From IMG/VR virus record IMGVR_UViG_3300009093_000035, positions 124,001-188,000 of that record: a stretch of DNA of 64,000 nt; one strand, 5' to 3'. The notes under the pieces were generated by a model, which saw nothing but the letters and a program-made list of their open reading frames with translations, was not told the origin of the DNA and ran no database searches. Of the stretch, positions 45,605 to 53,187 are shown piece by piece. Every line of letters begins with the position of its first letter. The stretch's first letter is position 1. Source of the DNA: a virus. Both the position numbers and the translations under genes were made by a program.

Positions 45605-46234
45605 TCATCGGATCTTCACGAAGGACGCCCCGTCCTTCTCTCGACGGATTCGATACGCCGAATCAGCCGCCTCCACCAACAAGGGATTGTGCGTCACGAG
45701 GAGGATGTCCACCCCCGTTCGGGCACAAAGAGTCTTGAGGAAGTTGGCCATGTTCAGAACGTACTTCTCGTCGAACGTTGGAAGGGACTCGTCCAGGAAC
45801 AGAACCGGACGCAACCCTCTCCGGAAGATCAGGGCTAGGCGAAGAAGTACAGACTGTACGGTCGAAACCGCCCCTCCGAATCCTTCTAGGCTATCGCCCT
45901 CGATCGAAGCCCCGTTCTTGATCTGGGAAGTGAGGAGAGAGACGTTGACCTTCCCCCTCAGGAACTCGACCTCGGCTCTCACCTTCAAGTCGAGGTCGTC
46001 GAAGACGGTCCGTACACCCTCGCTCTGGAGCGTCTCGATCGCCTTCACGCCTTCGGTGATCTCCGAGTCGATCAGAGATCGAATCAAGGCGGAGACGAGG
46101 TCAAGTAGCTCGACCCGTTCCCCCAAAGAACGAACCGCGGCTTGGGAGGCCTTCAGAGCTTCCCGAGCCGCGTCCCTACGTCCGAGGATCCGTGAGGTCT
46201 CCTCGACGAGGCTCTTCAGGCGATCTTCTTCCAC
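45605..46234 (-). CDS. C-terminal half of Rad50/SbcC-type ATPase
   Basis: About 209 residues; the start is uncertain (GTG 46234 or a CTG at 46219 behind GAAGAAG, overlapping the clamp gene stop). It has a coiled-coil beginning ('LGRRDAAREALKASQAAVRS'), the ABC signature region ('EGFGGAVSTVQSVLLRLALI'), Walker B 'PVLFLDESLPTF' and H-loop 'ILLVTHN'. There is no Walker A. The matching N-terminal half with Walker A and zinc hook is at 50573-51787, so the two likely pair as a split SbcC. Confidence 0.8.
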   Translation of the reverse strand: MEEDRLKSLVEETSRILGRRDAAREALKASQAAVRSLGERVELLDLVSALIRSLIDSEITEGVKAIETLQSEGVRTVFDDLDLKVRAEVEFLRGKVNVSLLTSQIKNGASIEGDSLEGFGGAVSTVQSVLLRLALIFRRGLRPVLFLDESLPTFDEKYVLNMANFLKTLCARTGVDILLVTHNPLLVEAADSAYRIRREKDGASFVKIR

Positions 46235-47433
46235 GTCACAGTCGTCACGTAGCGATCCGGCCCGCGCTCGTCCTGGACACGGATCCAGCCCCACTTGTCC
46301 CGCTTCGCGATGCCGAAGCGGACCTTGTCTCCGACGCACGCGCCGAGGAGGCGAAGGATGTAGTCGCTGCTGACCGCGAACCCGCTCTCGGGAAGCTCGT
46401 TCTCGATCTCGTCCCTCTGACCCTGGGTCTCGACCGGGAGATCGTAGCTCATGGGCTTCCCGTTCGTCGCCGACTTCATCGTGAAGACGACCTTGCCCGG
46501 ACGGATCTGGAACCGGAGGGTCGTGTCTTCCTGGGCCGCTCCGGAGGAGAGGAACTTCGTCGCGGACTTCACTTCGTCCTTCGCGATCTCCACCCAGTAG
46601 TCGTCCTTCGCCTCCCAATCCACCTTGAAGTCGGGGAAGCGCTTGTCGAACTTCGACTCCCCGAACACGGCGCCGTCGCCGCGCTTGAGGAACATGGCCT
46701 TCTCGCTCTCCCAGATCTCGACCTCGGGCTCGACGGCCGCTTCGGTCTTCCCGTCCGCCGGCTTCCCCTCTTCCGTCTTCTCGGTCGTCTTCTCGGGCTT
46801 CACCTTGAAGGTTCCGAGGAACGAGAGGATCGGAGCCGAGTCCTTCCCGAAGATCCGAAGGGCCGAGTTCTCCAGGCCCCCCATCTTCACGATCGAGACG
46901 GCGACGAGATCGGTCGAGAGAAGGCACCCGTCACGGACCTCCGCGACGCAGAACTGAGGCGTCTTCGCGTCGTCCTCGAAGATGAAGGTCTTCGAGTGGG
47001 CGATCGCAGCCGAGAGACGCTCCGCCGCGATCGAAGCCGTCTTCGTCGCCTTCGTCCCGAGGATGTCGTCCCAGAACGGGAAGCGCTGGGGGTCGAGGCC
47101 CGAGAGGGTGACCTCGCCGCGTCCGGCCCCGACCGTGATCTCTCCGGCGCCGTTGTCCGAGAAGTCGAGGACCGAATCGTCCCTCAGAGCTTCGAGGAGC
47201 ATGTTGACGCGCTTCGCCTCGACGGTGAAGGGCTTCCCCGTCTCTCCCTCGAAGGCGGCCGGCATCGGACACGAGGAGAAGACGCGCCCGTTGTAGGCGA
47301 GGACCTCCACCCGGTTCTCGCTCTTCGCGCGGAAGAGGTAGTGGCAGGAGATGTCTCCGGAACCAGCTGCGACCGTATGGGACACGACTCGGAGCGCGGT
47401 GTCTAGGTCGCGCTTGGCTACTTTGAACTTCAT
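46216..47433 (-). CDS. dnaN: DNA sliding clamp (DnaN-like)
   Basis: A 405-residue protein from ATG 47433 with GGAGG eight bases upstream. Three-domain clamp pattern: 'FKVAKRDLDTALRVVSHTVA' at the start, 'VTLSGLDPQRFPFW' and 'FAVSSDYILRLLGACVGDKV' near the end. A Lys/Glu/Ala-rich insert sits at about 215-245 ('PEKTTEKTEEGKPADGKTEA'). Slightly longer than bacterial beta (about 370). Encircles DNA and tethers the polymerase. First gene of a SbcCD-containing run. Confidence 0.8.
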   Translation of the reverse strand: MKFKVAKRDLDTALRVVSHTVAAGSGDISCHYLFRAKSENRVEVLAYNGRVFSSCPMPAAFEGETGKPFTVEAKRVNMLLEALRDDSVLDFSDNGAGEITVGAGRGEVTLSGLDPQRFPFWDDILGTKATKTASIAAERLSAAIAHSKTFIFEDDAKTPQFCVAEVRDGCLLSTDLVAVSIVKMGGLENSALRIFGKDSAPILSFLGTFKVKPEKTTEKTEEGKPADGKTEAAVEPEVEIWESEKAMFLKRGDGAVFGESKFDKRFPDFKVDWEAKDDYWVEIAKDEVKSATKFLSSGAAQEDTTLRFQIRPGKVVFTMKSATNGKPMSYDLPVETQGQRDEIENELPESGFAVSSDYILRLLGACVGDKVRFGIAKRDKWGWIRVQDERGPDRYVTTVTWKKIA

Positions 47434-47450
47434 CCTCGGATCCTCCTGAT

Positions 47451-47717
47451 TCACATGAAGGGCTTGATCGCCCGTTCCGCCTCGACCAACTGTGACTCCA
47501 ACTCTGACACCGACGTAGCCAGAGCCGATTCCAACTTCTGAATCGTCTCGTCCACCTTGTCCGGATCGATCTTCTTCGCCAGAAGCTCGTTCCGGATCGA
47601 CTCCACGTTCTTCTCGGCCTCTTCCAGGCGACCCAACACCCGGTCCTTCGCCGAGGACAGTTCATCACGGCGCTTGAGAGCCGTTTCGATTCGAGTCTTG
47701 AGATCAGTCGACGACAC
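47451..47717 (-). CDS. Small coiled-coil protein, possible SbcC mid-piece
   Basis: An 88-residue protein from GTG 47717, almost wholly coiled coil ('KDRVLGRLEEAEKNVESIRN', 'SVSELESQLVEAERAIKPFM') with a central 'KKIDPDKVDE' break. It sits between the C-terminal SbcC half, clamp and SbcD genes; I recall similar small coiled-coil proteins beside split SbcC genes in other phages. May form or bridge the coiled-coil arm. Confidence 0.6.
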   Translation of the reverse strand: MSSTDLKTRIETALKRRDELSSAKDRVLGRLEEAEKNVESIRNELLAKKIDPDKVDETIQKLESALATSVSELESQLVEAERAIKPFM

Positions 47718-47728
47718 GAGACTCCCCT

Positions 47729-47736
47729 TTACGTCT
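47729..47736 (-). promoter_or_regulatory. GACGTAA variant motif before 47717 gene
   Basis: Minus strand reads AAGACGTAAAGGGGAG, 11 nt before GTG 47717. It differs from the consensus by one base; the AAAGGGGAG also gives a ribosome site. Confidence 0.3.
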
Positions 47737-48751
47737 TTCGAGGGTCTGTATCACCCCCAAATGTGACGAAACCGTTCGATGAGAGAAGGGTGGACTCCAA
47801 AGCATCCTTCGGAGCGCGCGGCTTCCGCGCGTTCTCTTCCTTCCACTTCTGATGGGCCGGACACACCGGCTTGAAGTCGCAGAAGTTACAAGCCTTCGTA
47901 GAAGGGCTGGGGTCGAAGTATTCCTTCAACATGACCTTCCGCGTCTCGACCGAGCGGTGGGCGAGGGTCTTCAGATCGCTCCGGTCGCAGGACACCTCGA
48001 CCAAGCCGCTCCACTCTTCCGGCTTCCCCTCGTAGGGCTTGTTCGGACCGACTTCCTTCGGAGGAACGCCCTCGGGGAACCGGAAGTAGGCAAAGGCCAG
48101 CCGATTGGGAATCACGTTGTAGGCGACGAAGTAGCACAGGGCGTACCACCGAAGCTGATCAGCGTTCGTGTGGCGTCCGGGGCTCATCGAGTTCTTCCCG
48201 TCAACGATCGTCGTACCGTTGTCGTCGCGTCGGATGATGAGGTCGGGGCGACCCGCGATCTTCGTGAACTTGTCCACGTAGCCAGAAAGCTCGACTTCGG
48301 ACTTCGCGTACTGACCGAGAAGGCGATTCCGCCTCATCGTGCGGAGGTAGTTGAGAATCCCTTCGAGACAGATCCGAAGCAGGACCTCCTTCGGGGGAGA
48401 CTTGTCGTGCTTCACCCGAGAGTTCTCGGTCCAGTCCTCGTCCCACTCGATGTAGGTCTTCGAGAGACGTAGGGCGAAATCCTTCTCGACAATCTCCGTC
48501 AAGCGCTGTACCAGCGTCGCGGGCTCGCGCCACAGCTCATCGTTGTAGAGGCGCTCGATCGCCCAGGACAGGACGTTTCCCATCATGGCGTTGTGACCCG
48601 ACATCCGGACCTCAGGGAGAGGCTTCCCCTTCCCGGGCCCTCGGCCGAGATCGATCACACCGAATCCGTGCTTCCACAGGTACTTCTGCGGGCACTCTTC
48701 GTAGGCCTCGATGTGGGACCACCACAAATAACGTTCGGATGACATAGCCAT
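47729..48751 (-). CDS. Cas4/RecB-like PD-(D/E)XK exonuclease
   Basis: A 340-residue protein from ATG 48751. 'YEECPQKYLWKHG' at the N-terminus and 'CNFCDFKPVCPA' at the C-terminus supply four Cys for a 4Fe-4S cluster as in Cas4/AddB. The nuclease core: 'RPDLII' (Asp), 'TTIVDGKNS' (D...K) and 'ADQLRWYALCYF' (QxxxY). Probably resects DNA ends for recombination alongside RecA and RecD-like proteins. Confidence 0.85.
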   Translation of the reverse strand: MAMSSERYLWWSHIEAYEECPQKYLWKHGFGVIDLGRGPGKGKPLPEVRMSGHNAMMGNVLSWAIERLYNDELWREPATLVQRLTEIVEKDFALRLSKTYIEWDEDWTENSRVKHDKSPPKEVLLRICLEGILNYLRTMRRNRLLGQYAKSEVELSGYVDKFTKIAGRPDLIIRRDDNGTTIVDGKNSMSPGRHTNADQLRWYALCYFVAYNVIPNRLAFAYFRFPEGVPPKEVGPNKPYEGKPEEWSGLVEVSCDRSDLKTLAHRSVETRKVMLKEYFDPSPSTKACNFCDFKPVCPAHQKWKEENARKPRAPKDALESTLLSSNGFVTFGGDTDPRKT

Positions 48752-48756
48752 GGACG

Positions 48757-49731
48757 CTACCCTCCTGCCTTCTCGACGTAGAGGATGGCTTGCTCTTTCA
48801 CCATCGAGGGGACGTCCAGGTCTCGGATCGCGTCTCGGATTGAGCGGTCATTCCCGTCCGAGAGGATCTTCTGGATGCTATCGACGAAGTCCTCCATCAT
48901 GTTCTCTCGGATCTTCCGAACGTCGCGAGCTTCAAGATCGAACACTTCGGAGTTGGGCGCGTACTCCAGGGGGATCTTCTCGCACGAAACCCCCCTCGCG
49001 TCGAACGAAAGGTGTACCACGGAGGGAATCCGATCCAGGTCATCTTGGGCTAGGGAACCCCGAGTCAGCGAGCCCACGTTCACGATCGTCTTCCCGGCCG
49101 CCGTGTGAGTGATGCCTTGGTCCCGGTGCCAGTGGCCGAACAGAAACACGTCCGGGTCCAGATCATCCAAGTCGGCGTACTTGATCACGTCTTCCGACTC
49201 GAAAAGCGTCCCTCCTGACGGAGAGGCCAGAACGTGAGCCATCGCCACCAAGTAGTCCTCCGAACCCTTCTTGATCCGGGTGAAGCGCTCGAAGTCGTAC
49301 TTCGTTCCGTGGTAAGGAACCCCCACGACCCGAACTCGAATCCCACCCTCTTCGAACAGCCCCTCGTATTCATCGTAGCAACGGCGGAAGGCCTCGGCAC
49401 CGAACAGAACTCCCAGAGGCTGCTGTGGCAGGAACGAGTAGTCCCCGTAGACACAGTCGTGGTTACCCACGTTCCCGTAGACCGGGCAGGGGTACTTCTG
49501 GTGAAGCTCGATTACTCTCCGGACGAGCGAGTGGGAGTTCCGAGTCGGGCTCTTGATGTCGAAGAAGTCCCCTCCATCCAGAACGGCCTTCGCCTTCAGA
49601 CGTCGAGCGATCTCCCCAACCTGGGTGAGCTTACCGATCACCGTCTCCGTCCAGTCATCCTTCCGCGAGCGCGGGGTGTGGTCGGAAAGGTGAACGTCCG
49701 TTCGCCAGATCAAGGAGATCGAAGGGCTCAC
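48757..49731 (-). CDS. sbcD: SbcD/Mre11-like nuclease
   Basis: A 324-residue protein from GTG 49731. Calcineurin-type phosphoesterase motifs: 'TDVHLSDH', 'LDGGDFFD', 'GNVGNHD', 'AMAHV', 'FGHWHRDQ', all metal ligands present. Partner of SbcC, with dsDNA 3'-5' exonuclease and hairpin endonuclease activity. It lies between the two SbcC halves, 1.9 kb from the N-terminal half. Confidence 0.88.
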   Translation of the reverse strand: MSPSISLIWRTDVHLSDHTPRSRKDDWTETVIGKLTQVGEIARRLKAKAVLDGGDFFDIKSPTRNSHSLVRRVIELHQKYPCPVYGNVGNHDCVYGDYSFLPQQPLGVLFGAEAFRRCYDEYEGLFEEGGIRVRVVGVPYHGTKYDFERFTRIKKGSEDYLVAMAHVLASPSGGTLFESEDVIKYADLDDLDPDVFLFGHWHRDQGITHTAAGKTIVNVGSLTRGSLAQDDLDRIPSVVHLSFDARGVSCEKIPLEYAPNSEVFDLEARDVRKIRENMMEDFVDSIQKILSDGNDRSIRDAIRDLDVPSMVKEQAILYVEKAGG

Positions 49732-49732
49732 C

Positions 49733-50344
49733 TCAGAGGGTTCCCTTCAACGACGGGTAGTTCCGATCGAACCAGGAAACGGCCTCGCGTCCCGACTGGC
49801 TCATGATGATCCCGTTCCGAAGCGAAGAGAACAGGGACTTCAGGGCGACCTTGGCCAAGGCCGAGTCCGCCTCCTGAAGGTGGTAGTCGGCGACGAGGAG
49901 ACTCACGATCTGATCCTCGTTGCCAGAGAGTTCGAAGCTTCCCGTAAGCCAGAAGCTCATCGAGGCCCCTGCCGCGTAGGCGTCGGTCTCGTACTTCACA
50001 CGAGACTCAGTCTCCGTCGCATAGAGCCAGAGGAACTCCGTGCTCGAAGCGTGGAACTGGATCACGTGTTGGATCTCATGGGTGAGGATCTGGATGAACT
50101 CCCGAGGATCTCCGTTGAGGGTCGCGTCGGGCATGTAGACCGTGTCCCCGAGCGTCGTCGTGATCCGAGTCAGGAAGTCCGAGCCGGACGCGAGCCCCCC
50201 GGTTCCGAGCGTACGGGCGAGGTCGAACCCCGTCGCGACGGCCTTCATGACGTCAGAGGTCTCCTTCTGGACGACCTTCGCCCCGAACTTCCCGCACATG
50301 TACGAAGAGAACTCGGCCGCTACCTTCTTCATGTCGACGGTCAT
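49733..50344 (-). CDS. HExxH metallopeptidase-like protein
   Basis: A 203-residue protein from ATG 50344 (ATGA overlap). 'FIQILTHEIQHVIQFH' gives an HExxH zinc motif near residue 95, followed by 'TETESRVKYETDAYA' whose Glu could be the third ligand. 'MRR' upstream frame is not used. Possibly a cytoplasmic peptidase or minor virion enzyme; substrate unknown. Confidence 0.65.
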   Translation of the reverse strand: MTVDMKKVAAEFSSYMCGKFGAKVVQKETSDVMKAVATGFDLARTLGTGGLASGSDFLTRITTTLGDTVYMPDATLNGDPREFIQILTHEIQHVIQFHASSTEFLWLYATETESRVKYETDAYAAGASMSFWLTGSFELSGNEDQIVSLLVADYHLQEADSALAKVALKSLFSSLRNGIIMSQSGREAVSWFDRNYPSLKGTL

Positions 50345-50592
50345 GGCTGACCTCCCGCGCAGGCCGACTGAGGGACACAAGCGTGGACCCCGTCGGACGT
50401 CATACAACAGACCGCCCCGAGCGAGGCACAGGTCACGTCCCCTACCGGAGACCAACGCTGAGTCCCTGAACAGACCTGGGGGCGATCGTCGATACACGTC
50501 GAGGTACTCGGAGCGCATCCGCTAGGAGCCGGTAGGTGTGGGCAACCGCTGACGACGAGCGTCAGGACGAGACTAGTGAGAATGGGCTTCAT
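50341..50592 (-). CDS. Cys-rich lipoprotein
   Basis: An 83-residue protein from ATG 50592. Signal peptide 'MKPILTSLVLTLVVSGC' ends in a lipobox (V-S-G-C, Cys17). Mature part has about eleven further Cys in a short span ('CIDDRPQVCSG', 'TCASLGAVCCMTSDG'). Anchored at the outer membrane periplasmic face in a Gram-negative host, or to the membrane in others. Role unknown; overlaps the next gene by 20 bp. Confidence 0.7.
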   Translation of the reverse strand: MKPILTSLVLTLVVSGCPHLPAPSGCAPSTSTCIDDRPQVCSGTQRWSPVGDVTCASLGAVCCMTSDGVHACVPQSACAGGQP

Positions 50593-51787
50593 GATCCGCT
50601 CCGCAGAAGGGGCATTTTCCGGATTCCCGGAAGAGAGTCTCCACCTCGGAAACCGAGGTACCGTGTTCCTGGCGGAGCGTTTCGAGCTTAGCTGTAAGAG
50701 TCCCTACCGTCGCCTTAGCGGCCTTCCACTTCTCAGCCAGGGTACGGAGCGCCTCGATACGGTCGCGGGCTTCTAGAGCCCCTTTCGGGTCCGGGAGGAC
50801 CATCGCCCTAAACCCCTCTGAGGCTTTCCGGGATAGGTCTCGTTCCGACTTCGCCTTCGCGAGCCGAGACCCGGTTCCGGAGACCCACTCTAGAGCCGCA
50901 CTGGTCTTCTTCGCCCGGGCGACTAGGTCAGGATCTCCGATCGTGATCCCCTTCGCGGGAAGCAGCTTCGACAGCACCTCCTTCGAGGTTACCAGTCGAT
51001 CTCGAAGGCCTGAGACTTCGGAGTACGCCTTCTGTCCGGCCTTGATTCGGTCCGACCCAGAGATCTCGACCTTCCTCACTGGAAGAAGCTTCGAGACTGC
51101 ATCCCTGGACGAGACCCACCGCTCCCTGAGGGCCAGTATCTCCCGATGAGAGCGGCGTCCGCCCTCGATCTTCTCGTTCAAAGGGCCCAACGCCCGAACC
51201 TTCGAGGCGAGGTCGTCCAGCCCGTCGAACTTCTGTAGTTCCAACTCGAACCGAGTCGTGTCCGCCGTCCGAACCTTCAGATCCGAGGCGGCGCTACGAC
51301 GGTCAGACTGAGAGAGACGAAGAGCTTCGTTGAGAACGCCGACCTTATCGATGTTCGCGATCGCTTCCGCGAGAACGCTCCCCGGCTTGTCGAGGAGGAA
51401 GATCTGTCCCACGAACTGGTGGGCGAACTGGGGCCACAAGTCGGCCCCTGTAGCCTCGATCGGATAGACCCCAAGCTTCTTCACGTCCTCGGGAGCCCCG
51501 GATCCGACCCGTTCGAGCGTCGTCCCGTCCAGCTCGTACCGATTCACCTTCGGGCCCTTCTCCCAGGAGAGCTTGTGGCCGTCCGAGAAAGAGAGGTCCA
51601 CTTTCGAGGAGTCCTTCCCGGAACGGACGAAGCTCGTCCCACGAGTGTTCGTGAACGCCCCGAAGATCGCTCGGATCAGCGCCGTCTTCCCTGAGTTGTT
51701 CGGACCGGTGATGATCGTGAGACCATTCACCTCAATCGTCACATCCCCGATAGACTGGAAGTCGCGGACTCGAACCGAAAAAGGCAT
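50573..51787 (-). CDS. N-terminal half of Rad50/SbcC-type ATPase
   Basis: A 404-residue protein from ATG 51787 with GGAGG six bases upstream. 'VRDFQSIGDVTIEVNGLTII' and Walker A 'GPNNSGKTALI' open it; a long coiled coil follows (about 165-385). It ends 'ESGKCPFCGADHEAHSH', a zinc hook (CxxC) at the very C-terminus. There is no Walker B. Its partner is the C-terminal half at 45605-46234. The zinc hook ends the chain instead of linking two arms. Confidence 0.88.
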   Translation of the reverse strand: MPFSVRVRDFQSIGDVTIEVNGLTIITGPNNSGKTALIRAIFGAFTNTRGTSFVRSGKDSSKVDLSFSDGHKLSWEKGPKVNRYELDGTTLERVGSGAPEDVKKLGVYPIEATGADLWPQFAHQFVGQIFLLDKPGSVLAEAIANIDKVGVLNEALRLSQSDRRSAASDLKVRTADTTRFELELQKFDGLDDLASKVRALGPLNEKIEGGRRSHREILALRERWVSSRDAVSKLLPVRKVEISGSDRIKAGQKAYSEVSGLRDRLVTSKEVLSKLLPAKGITIGDPDLVARAKKTSAALEWVSGTGSRLAKAKSERDLSRKASEGFRAMVLPDPKGALEARDRIEALRTLAEKWKAAKATVGTLTAKLETLRQEHGTSVSEVETLFRESGKCPFCGADHEAHSH

Positions 51788-51846: not shown

Positions 51847-53187
51847 TCAGGCCTCTTCGCTCTCTTCCGCAGCCTTCTTCTTCGCTGCCAACTCTTCCTC
51901 GGTCGGGGGAAGAATGTCGTCGAACAGGTTGTCGGTGACGGCGTCGTCCTCGAAGATCTCCGATCCGTCCGGGCCTTCGTCCGCCGATTCCGACGCCTTC
52001 ACGGCGCTCAGCTTCGGGACGAGGAGGCTGAAGAGCGTCTGGAGGGCGCCCTTCCTCTCGGCGATCTGCTTGATCAGCGGATCCATACCCTGGGCACGGA
52101 TCGAGCCGCCCGGAGCGCCCTCCCACTCGTACCACGAACCGCTCTTCCCGATCACCTTGTAGACGATCGCGAGATCGACGACGGATCGGTTGTTGTCGAT
52201 GCCGACGCCGGACTTGAGATAGAACTTCTGCTCGTGGTGGACGGAGTCGCTCACCTTGCACTTGTCGAGCTTCGCGAGAACGACCGTGCCGGTCACCATC
52301 TCCTCGGTCTTCCCGGTGATGGCGTTGAAGGTCTTCGTCTTCTCCTTGTTGAAGACGCGGAGCATCATCCGCACCGCCGAGTAATACTTCCAGGCCTCTC
52401 CGCCCTGGGGCTCGGCGTCCGGTCCGTGGCCCTGGGAGTTGATCTTCTTTCGAAGCTGGGAGATGCCGATCACGCAAGAGTCGCTCTTGCGAATCAGGGT
52501 CTTGAACTTCGGGAGGAACTGGCTCCACTTCTGAGCCACGAGGCCAATCCGTCCCTGGTCGCCTTCGTCCTCGATGTTCCGATGGAACAGGTCGTGGGGA
52601 ACGCCTGCGCCCACCGAGTCGAGGACGATCAGGTCCACTCCGGCGCTCGCCATCTGGACCATGATCTTCAGACCCTCTTCGAGGGTGTTCGGCTGCATCA
52701 GGAGGAACCGCGACTCGTCCTTCACCGGAACTCCGAGAGTCTCGGCCCAACGAGGATCGACCTCGTTCTCCCAGTCGATGTAGACGCACGTCCCGCCCAT
52801 CGCGCAGACGGAGGCCGCCGTAGAGAGCGCGAGGGTGGTCTTACCCGCGCCCGCGTTCCCGTAGATGTTGATGATGCGACCCTTCGGAAGACCCGGGCAG
52901 GGAGCGACTCCCCGAGAGTTGGGACGACCTCCCACGAGGAAGTCCACCACCATCGCCCCCGTCGGGATGTGGGGCATCGAAGCCTTCAGCTGTCCCTCGG
53001 TGAGAGGGACGACGTGATCTTCCTTCAGGATCTTCTTCAGGGCTTCCCGCGCTCCGATCAGCGGGCTGTTCCCCTTCTTGTTCATGATCGGCTTCGCAGC
53101 CGCCTTCTGCTGAACGGTCTTCAGGATCGCCGACGTGTTCGGCGCCTTCTTCTCGACCTTCTCGGACTTCTCGGGGGTGGGACTCAT
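51847..53187 (-). CDS. recA: RecA/UvsX-like recombinase
   Basis: A 446-residue protein from ATG 53187. Walker A 'YGNAGAGKTT' near 110, Walker B 'VDLIVLDSVGAGVP', 'GISQLRKKI' (loop 1 region) and 'AVRMMLRVFNKEK'. The C-terminal extension is acidic and holds 'TDNLFDDILPPTEEE', a motif shared with the SSB and UvsY-like proteins. Catalyses strand exchange. Confidence 0.9.
   Translation of the reverse strand: MSPTPEKSEKVEKKAPNTSAILKTVQQKAAAKPIMNKKGNSPLIGAREALKKILKEDHVVPLTEGQLKASMPHIPTGAMVVDFLVGGRPNSRGVAPCPGLPKGRIINIYGNAGAGKTTLALSTAASVCAMGGTCVYIDWENEVDPRWAETLGVPVKDESRFLLMQPNTLEEGLKIMVQMASAGVDLIVLDSVGAGVPHDLFHRNIEDEGDQGRIGLVAQKWSQFLPKFKTLIRKSDSCVIGISQLRKKINSQGHGPDAEPQGGEAWKYYSAVRMMLRVFNKEKTKTFNAITGKTEEMVTGTVVLAKLDKCKVSDSVHHEQKFYLKSGVGIDNNRSVVDLAIVYKVIGKSGSWYEWEGAPGGSIRAQGMDPLIKQIAERKGALQTLFSLLVPKLSAVKASESADEGPDGSEIFEDDAVTDNLFDDILPPTEEELAAKKKAAEESEEA

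Follow-up and report, generated by a model that had tools for sequence, protein, structure and literature searches.

A phage-encoded SbcCD/Mre11-Rad50-type complex with Rad50 probably split into two polypeptides at the zinc hook

Results

The window analysed here, a stretch of 64,000 nucleotides covering positions 124,001 to 188,000 of the IMG/VR virus record IMGVR_UViG_3300009093_000035 (248,579 bp), carries a gene set that most probably specifies an SbcCD/Mre11-Rad50 complex in which Rad50 (SbcC) consists of two polypeptides, a reading to which we assign a probability of roughly 0.83. The first polypeptide, termed N-half (50573..51787, 404 residues), comprises the N-lobe of an ATP-binding cassette (ABC) ATPase, a helical arm built from repeats and a C-terminal zinc hook. 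The second, termed C-half (45605..46234, 209 residues), is composed of a 76-residue helix followed by an ABC C-lobe. A conserved third component is a coiled-coil protein of 88 residues (47451..47717; hereafter the coil protein), for which the sequence predicts two helices connected by a turn (IDPD). The two halves would pair at the head, and the coil protein may complete or gate the hook end. All positions refer to the window, and all genes of the set are located on its minus strand.

Comparison of the N-half open reading frame (ORF) with family models yielded matches to AAA_23 (7.9e-11) and phrog_16465 (5e-23). Its Walker A motif GPNNSGKT (residues 28-35; 51683..51706) contains three residues, G28, G33 and K34, that are unchanged across 28 homologs, and the protein terminates with GKCPFCGADHEAHSH*, placing the zinc-hook motif CPFC (residues 392-395; 50603..50614) nine residues ahead of the stop codon. 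Here, C392, P393 and C395 are unchanged in 27 aligned homologs. Thus, the original prediction of a protein that carries Walker A and ends at a CPFC hook holds. When a profile of 28 N-half sequences was compared with all PDB sequences, the best matches were to Rad50 (5e-10), and the CPFC region aligned to the Rad50 hook-domain chains 1l8d and 6zff (~4e-4). This alignment covers only the first part of the hook chain, that is residues 5-61 of 112 in 1l8d, as expected for a chain that stops at the apex. The AlphaFold2 model of the N-half is of moderate quality (predicted local distance difference test, pLDDT, 76; predicted template modelling score, pTM, 0.34), and a Foldseek search with its head part ranked Rad50 first (1f2u_A).

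The C-half ORF matches phrog_15167, a family of 211-residue proteins (4.9e-17). A profile of 40 C-half sequences identified the C-lobe of Pyrococcus furiosus Rad50 as best match among all PDB sequences (3qkr_B, 4e-12). The AlphaFold2 model, which is confident in this case (pLDDT 90.7), shows the single helix preceding the C-lobe, and Rad50 C-lobes again rank first in the Foldseek search (1ii8_B, 3e-8). Of the signature, Walker B and H-loop originally ascribed to this protein, the latter two are intact: Walker B reads LFLDE (residues 145-149; 45788..45802) with D148 and E149 invariant in the 40 homologs, and the Thr-His pair of the H-loop (VTHN; residues 181-182; 45689..45694) shows an invariant T181 and H182 in at least 90% of sequences. 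The signature, however, is degenerate. It reads GFGGAV in the window, and its Gly-Gly pair (residues 120-121; 45872..45877) is kept in the family, with G121 invariant and G120 present in at least 90%, but the serine of the LSGG consensus occurs in 0/40 aligned C-halves, being replaced by F, Y, R, N or other residues in variants such as GFGG, AFGG, DRGGG and SFGGG.

In principle, the C-half could be one half of another ABC ATPase rather than the partner of the N-half. Single-sequence similarity is indeed weak, as the match to PF02463 (5e-4) is below the cut-off, and ABC transporters are also found among the profile matches. Nevertheless, Rad50 is the top match by both profile and fold, the C-half co-occurs with the N-half, the two are encoded in operons in Bacilli, and each has a single match in the phage record, no second N-half or C-half candidate being detectable in the whole 248.6 kb. 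We therefore rejected this explanation, which we consider highly improbable, on grounds of profile, fold and co-occurrence; the original prediction that the C-half derives from Rad50 rather than another ATPase is borne out. That P. furiosus Rad50 heads were crystallized with their N and C parts as separate fragments (1f2t/1f2u) indicates that a head made of two chains is workable.

The same arrangement was sought and found in other phages: N-half, coil protein, C-half and SbcD are encoded together in independent phages. The split had been regarded as unusual, but it is not peculiar to this phage, as the same genes recur in huge phages, in phages and prophages of Firmicutes, in plasmids and in chromosomes of Bacilli. 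Three gene orders can be distinguished. Related huge-phage loci, including LR745208.1 (485 kb), share the order of the window, a second order occurs in Firmicutes phages, and chromosomes and plasmids of Bacilli have the order SbcD-N-half-coil-C-half. Close clustering of the four genes in orders differing from that of the window was seen in Bacillus phage vB_BboS-125, in IMG/VR phage and prophage loci and in named plasmids and genomes. In a diverged third clade, represented by Tunturiibacter phage Tunturi_5 and several records of 110-456 kb, the C-half gene is far from the N-half gene; the N-half of this clade retains a terminal CxxC motif, and its gene is followed by a coil gene of ~92-105 codons and has SbcD at a distance of at most ~8 kb. 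Overall, 23 of the 29 records holding a C-half also encode an N-half, even when both are separated by more than 100 kb, and the six records without it are contigs of 42-91 kb.

To quantify conservation of the hook at the chain end, N-halves from all sources were clustered at 70% identity. A CxxC motif is present within the last 50 residues of 54/55 non-redundant N-halves as compared to 12/742 control ORFs, i.e. other open frames of 300-1000 residues. Together with the retention of the gene set in independent phages, this shows that the arrangement is more than chance. The lone exception is the N-half of Microbacterium phage Magritte (OR553905.1), which lacks the hook (L005:6001-7053); the corresponding C-half gene (L004:284-934) is located ~93 kb away on the same record. 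Single-chain relatives in which N- and C-half are joined, which would serve as a Rosetta stone, were found neither in 400 Bacilli genomes nor in the viral loci.

These data also bear on the idea that the split is a recent accident, caused by a homing endonuclease or a frameshift and possibly leaving a non-functional product, or that it is an assembly error. In favour of this, an AP2-domain gene lies between the N-half and coil genes of vB_BboS-125, and two N-half homologs carry intein-like insertions in the P-loop (GPNNSGK / A...HN / TALIR; L019:4699-6729, with the same gene in L008, and L036:1382-3625). Yet the break point is the same in 54 of the 55 non-redundant N-halves, from many phages and bacteria, catalytic residues are conserved, and bacterial chromosomes carry the genes in tight operons. 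A recent frameshift or assembly error is ruled out by conservation of the break point, and an accident in general is hardly credible.

The Bacilli survey comprised 400 genomes from the class of Sutcliffiella. A C-half was detected in 50/400 genomes, in all 50 cases within an open frame of 215-297 residues and never as part of a fusion (0 fused). All 20 loci examined (20/20) display a compact SbcD-N-half-coil-C-half array, in one case with SbcD and N-half in a single frame. This order is colinear with ordinary sbcD-sbcC, sbcC being present as three pieces. In 16/20 cases the operon resides in a core locus between recA and rny, with the order cinA-type gene, DEAD helicase, recA, (recX), SbcD-N-half-coil-C-half, rny, ymdB-type gene and spoVS-type gene, where the names of the flanking genes were read from sequence and some of these genes are absent in some of the 16 loci. 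PF13558, the Pfam model for the Walker B region of canonical SbcC and the one model by which its absence was judged, matched in 3/20 genomes with the split operon as compared to 15/20 Bacilli genomes in which no C-half was matched (Fisher p = 3e-4). This suggests that the split operon replaces canonical SbcC in one lineage of Bacilli.

Two plasmids, an Aneurinibacillus megaplasmid and a plasmid of Geobacillus subterraneus, encode fusions of SbcD with the N-half (937 and 801 residues, respectively), which tie the nuclease to the N-half. Both fusions carry CPxC near the C-terminus, and coil and C-half genes adjoin. On plasmid p3 of Bacillus velezensis LBY-1, the C-half (L162:5992-6627, WP_218791269.1) is misannotated as 'chromosome partitioning protein ParA'.

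It is also conceivable that the proteins form a defence or counter-defence ATPase system instead of a complex for recombination and end processing. The P-loop of the N-half weakly matches GajA, AriA and similar proteins, which share a generic P-loop, as well as mad3, which also matches the C-half. However, these matches extend no further than generic ABC motifs, an SbcD nuclease is rarely missing, and the genes are found beside recA in phages and within the core recA-rny locus of Bacilli, most of which have no other detectable SbcC. As only generic P-loop and ABC matches argue for it, a defence role was discarded as improbable.

A profile of the coil protein, searched against the 20,772 ORFs of 91 loci, matched a single ORF per locus, near the N- or C-half. 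In the clade in which the C-half is distant, the coil gene directly follows the N-half gene. The original prediction held that the coil protein supplies part of the missing arm. Gene order is in agreement with this, as coil stands between N- and C-half, but length is not: the coil protein (82 +/- 6 residues) and the C-half (210 +/- 7) are nearly constant, while the arm of the N-half grows in steps of ~44-47 residues. In a comparison of 44 rows, two of them with inteins, the length of the arm was uncorrelated with the lengths of coil protein and C-half (r about -0.06). These length statistics do not support the coil protein as a return strand of equal length. As a normal Rad50 arm requires two strands of equal length and the lengths of coil protein and C-half ignore that of the arm, the N-half arm must be partly self-sufficient.

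Tandem repeats build this arm. In autocorrelation, a spacing of 47 residues stands out in Bacillus phages (z 33) and in Bacilli (z 24), and one of 44 residues in huge phages (z 5), these z values being inflated by the relatedness of the sequences. The distances from Walker A to the hook cluster near 320, 364, 411, 427 and 474 residues, in steps of about one repeat, except that 411 and 427 are not one repeat apart and belong to different clades. The arm profile (residues ~199-361; window 50576-51787) also gave weak matches to leucine-rich repeat proteins in the PDB (4u08, 6e-5; SHOC-2, ~6e-3), which may have arisen by chance from 44-residue repeats with LP/PV loops or may be telling of the fold of the arm.

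A different assignment for the coil protein has to be considered here. The halves might form the SbcC head while the coil protein acts on its own as a regulator or chaperone, or as an adaptor to the clamp or replisome, and the arm is fully provided for by the helical repeats of 44-47 residues. The repeat periodicity argues for this, being strong at 47 in two groups (z about 33 and 24) and shifted to 44 in huge phages, and so does the observation that the N-half changes in length by about one repeat while coil protein and C-half remain constant. On the other side, N-half, coil protein and C-half are colinear with intact Rad50, the coil gene adjoins the N-half gene even when the C-half gene is elsewhere, and the sole phage without a hook, Magritte, also lacks an adjacent coil gene. 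We regard an independent coil protein as a serious contender with somewhat less than an even chance.

In the direction of transcription, the genes of the window are arranged in the order RecA, N-half, an 83-residue lipoprotein-like ORF, a peptidase-like ORF, SbcD-like nuclease, PD-(D/E)XK nuclease, coil protein, sliding clamp and C-half. This agrees with the earlier assignment of the separating genes as SbcD, a Cas4-like nuclease, the coil protein and the clamp; the lipoprotein-like and peptidase-like ORFs are additions to it. The SbcD/Mre11-type nuclease (48757..49731, 324 residues; Metallophos, 2e-11) has a complete metal site (DxH, GD, GNHD, H166, GHxH), and residues D12, H14, D55, H91, D92, H166, H200 and H202 are invariant from huge phage to Bacillota. 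The alignment reveals a C-terminal extension past the phosphoesterase domain. Of 20 phage records, 19 contain an SbcD homolog. In vB_BboS-125, a complete SbcD is encoded next to the split genes at ~22.4-23.4 kb of NC_048735.1 (L003:8256-9236), where RefSeq lists no coding sequence.

The PD-(D/E)XK nuclease is Cas4/AddB-like (47729..48751; PDDEXK_1, 6.8e-17) and is a neighbour in the huge-phage clade. In one 252-kb record (G001; loci L009 and L014), the position usually taken by SbcD and this nuclease is occupied by a DNA-methyltransferase-like gene. Another DNA-methyltransferase-like gene, apparently broken by homing-element-like insertions, lies between the nuclease and coil genes in a further locus (L007:5561-8597). 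The peptidase-like gene with its HExxH motif (HEIQH; 49733..50344; phrog_13834, 1e-12) lies between the N-half and SbcD genes and is syntenic in close huge phages. The sliding clamp gene (46216..47454; phrog_947, 1.6e-25) keeps its position in related huge-phage loci. It overlaps the coil gene by 4 nt, coil stop with clamp start, and the C-half gene by 19 nt, the GTG start codon of the latter being situated within the 3' end of the clamp gene. Judged from these overlaps, the three genes are therefore probably translationally coupled. The RecA/UvsX recombinase gene (51847..53187; RecA, 1.4e-40) is directly upstream of the N-half gene. Indeed, recA adjoins the split genes in phage and in Bacilli, and a clamp gene is also near in huge phages, which fits a role in preparing DNA ends for recombination at the replication fork.

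Discussion

In the complex proposed here, the N-half would contribute Walker A and the Q-loop together with the ascending arm and the CxxC zinc hook at its chain end, whereas the C-half would provide a short coiled coil and the lobe carrying signature, Walker B and H-loop. Both chains would pair into one ABC head, and two such heads would sandwich ATP. SbcD (Mre11) is expected to dock at the base of the coiled coil and to cut DNA ends or hairpins. At the opposite end, two N-half chain ends may share one zinc ion. By virtue of the N-half-coil-C-half gene order, the coil protein can be envisaged as a third subunit that stands for the part of the descending arm just past the hook, no longer covalently attached, and most likely packs on the arm or hook end of the N-half, where it would close or gate the ring. 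Acting on DNA ends that are blocked or broken, the complex would probably prepare them for RecA-dependent recombination.

Several observations weigh against this proposal. Record G001 carries intact N-half, coil and C-half genes (L009) but no SbcD anywhere. The N-half of Magritte has neither a zinc hook nor an adjacent coil gene. The model of the N-half arm is of low confidence (pTM 0.34), and the signature serine is missing from every aligned C-half. The missing length correlation speaks against a plain antiparallel arm that includes the coil protein. Finally, the contrast in SbcC absence is confounded by lineage, as most of the loci in Bacilli share one genomic position.

The system resembles Mre11-Rad50/SbcCD of P. 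furiosus and Escherichia coli in its ABC N- and C-lobes, Walker A and B, H-loop, coiled coil and CxxC hook, and its nuclease partner is likewise of the calcineurin type with a full set of metal ligands. It differs in that textbook Rad50/SbcC is one chain with antiparallel coils, whereas the protein described here is interrupted immediately behind the hook and made as two chains, both in this phage and in every relative examined. An extra coil subunit of ~80 residues, loss of the signature serine and an arm of 44-47-residue repeats are further differences, and the split Rad50 is far shorter than E. coli SbcC. Like gp46/gp47 of phage T4 and other phage SbcC/SbcD proteins, it represents phage-encoded end processing of the Rad50/Mre11 type, as also reflected by weak matches to phrog_77 and phrog_100. 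However, T4 gp46 is a single chain, whereas the halves belong to the separate families phrog_16465 and phrog_15167, which PHROGs lists as 'exonuclease' and 'ATPase', respectively, without linking them.

Searches of open-access PMC papers retrieved no account of a split Rad50. Fusion proteins of SbcD and SbcC (SbcDC) were reported by Yoshida et al. 2011 (PMC3175470), and according to the part of that paper dealing with them, those of Anaerostipes and Bacillus phage 0305phi8-36 lack one P-loop segment, for which the same part offers no explanation. The Aneurinibacillus and Geobacillus plasmids, in which SbcD is fused ahead of the SbcC N-half, are similar to the fusions described there, and a separately encoded C-half would possibly explain the segment missing from the Anaerostipes and 0305phi8-36 proteins. 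In its passages on SbcC/SbcD, a survey of jumbo phages (PMC7824862) portrays these proteins as near-universal and makes no mention of a split SbcC. It also lists split DNA polymerase III alpha and split RNA polymerase subunits, which are comparable in that a core replication enzyme is encoded by separate, sometimes distant genes.

A more far-reaching scenario, which we consider rather unlikely, is that the break at the hook renders the Rad50 ring non-covalent, with the coil protein acting as a removable pin or gate for loading or release of DNA through the hook end. This would be a topological entry gate reminiscent of the hinge or kleisin gate of SMC proteins, and one lineage of Bacilli would have no SbcC other than such a gated Rad50 in three pieces.

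Rad50/SbcC is usually treated as one long chain with the hook in the middle of the arm. That a natural version with a break precisely at this point is conserved suggests that the arm can do without covalent continuity, and the three subunits (404 + 88 + 209 residues) offer a small, tractable system for testing the roles of hook and arm. Recognition of the split protein would explain many annotations as "hypothetical", "exonuclease", "ATPase" and even "ParA". As split Rad50, encoded at the recA locus, apparently stands in for canonical SbcC in a lineage of Bacilli, the question becomes genetically testable in a bacterium.

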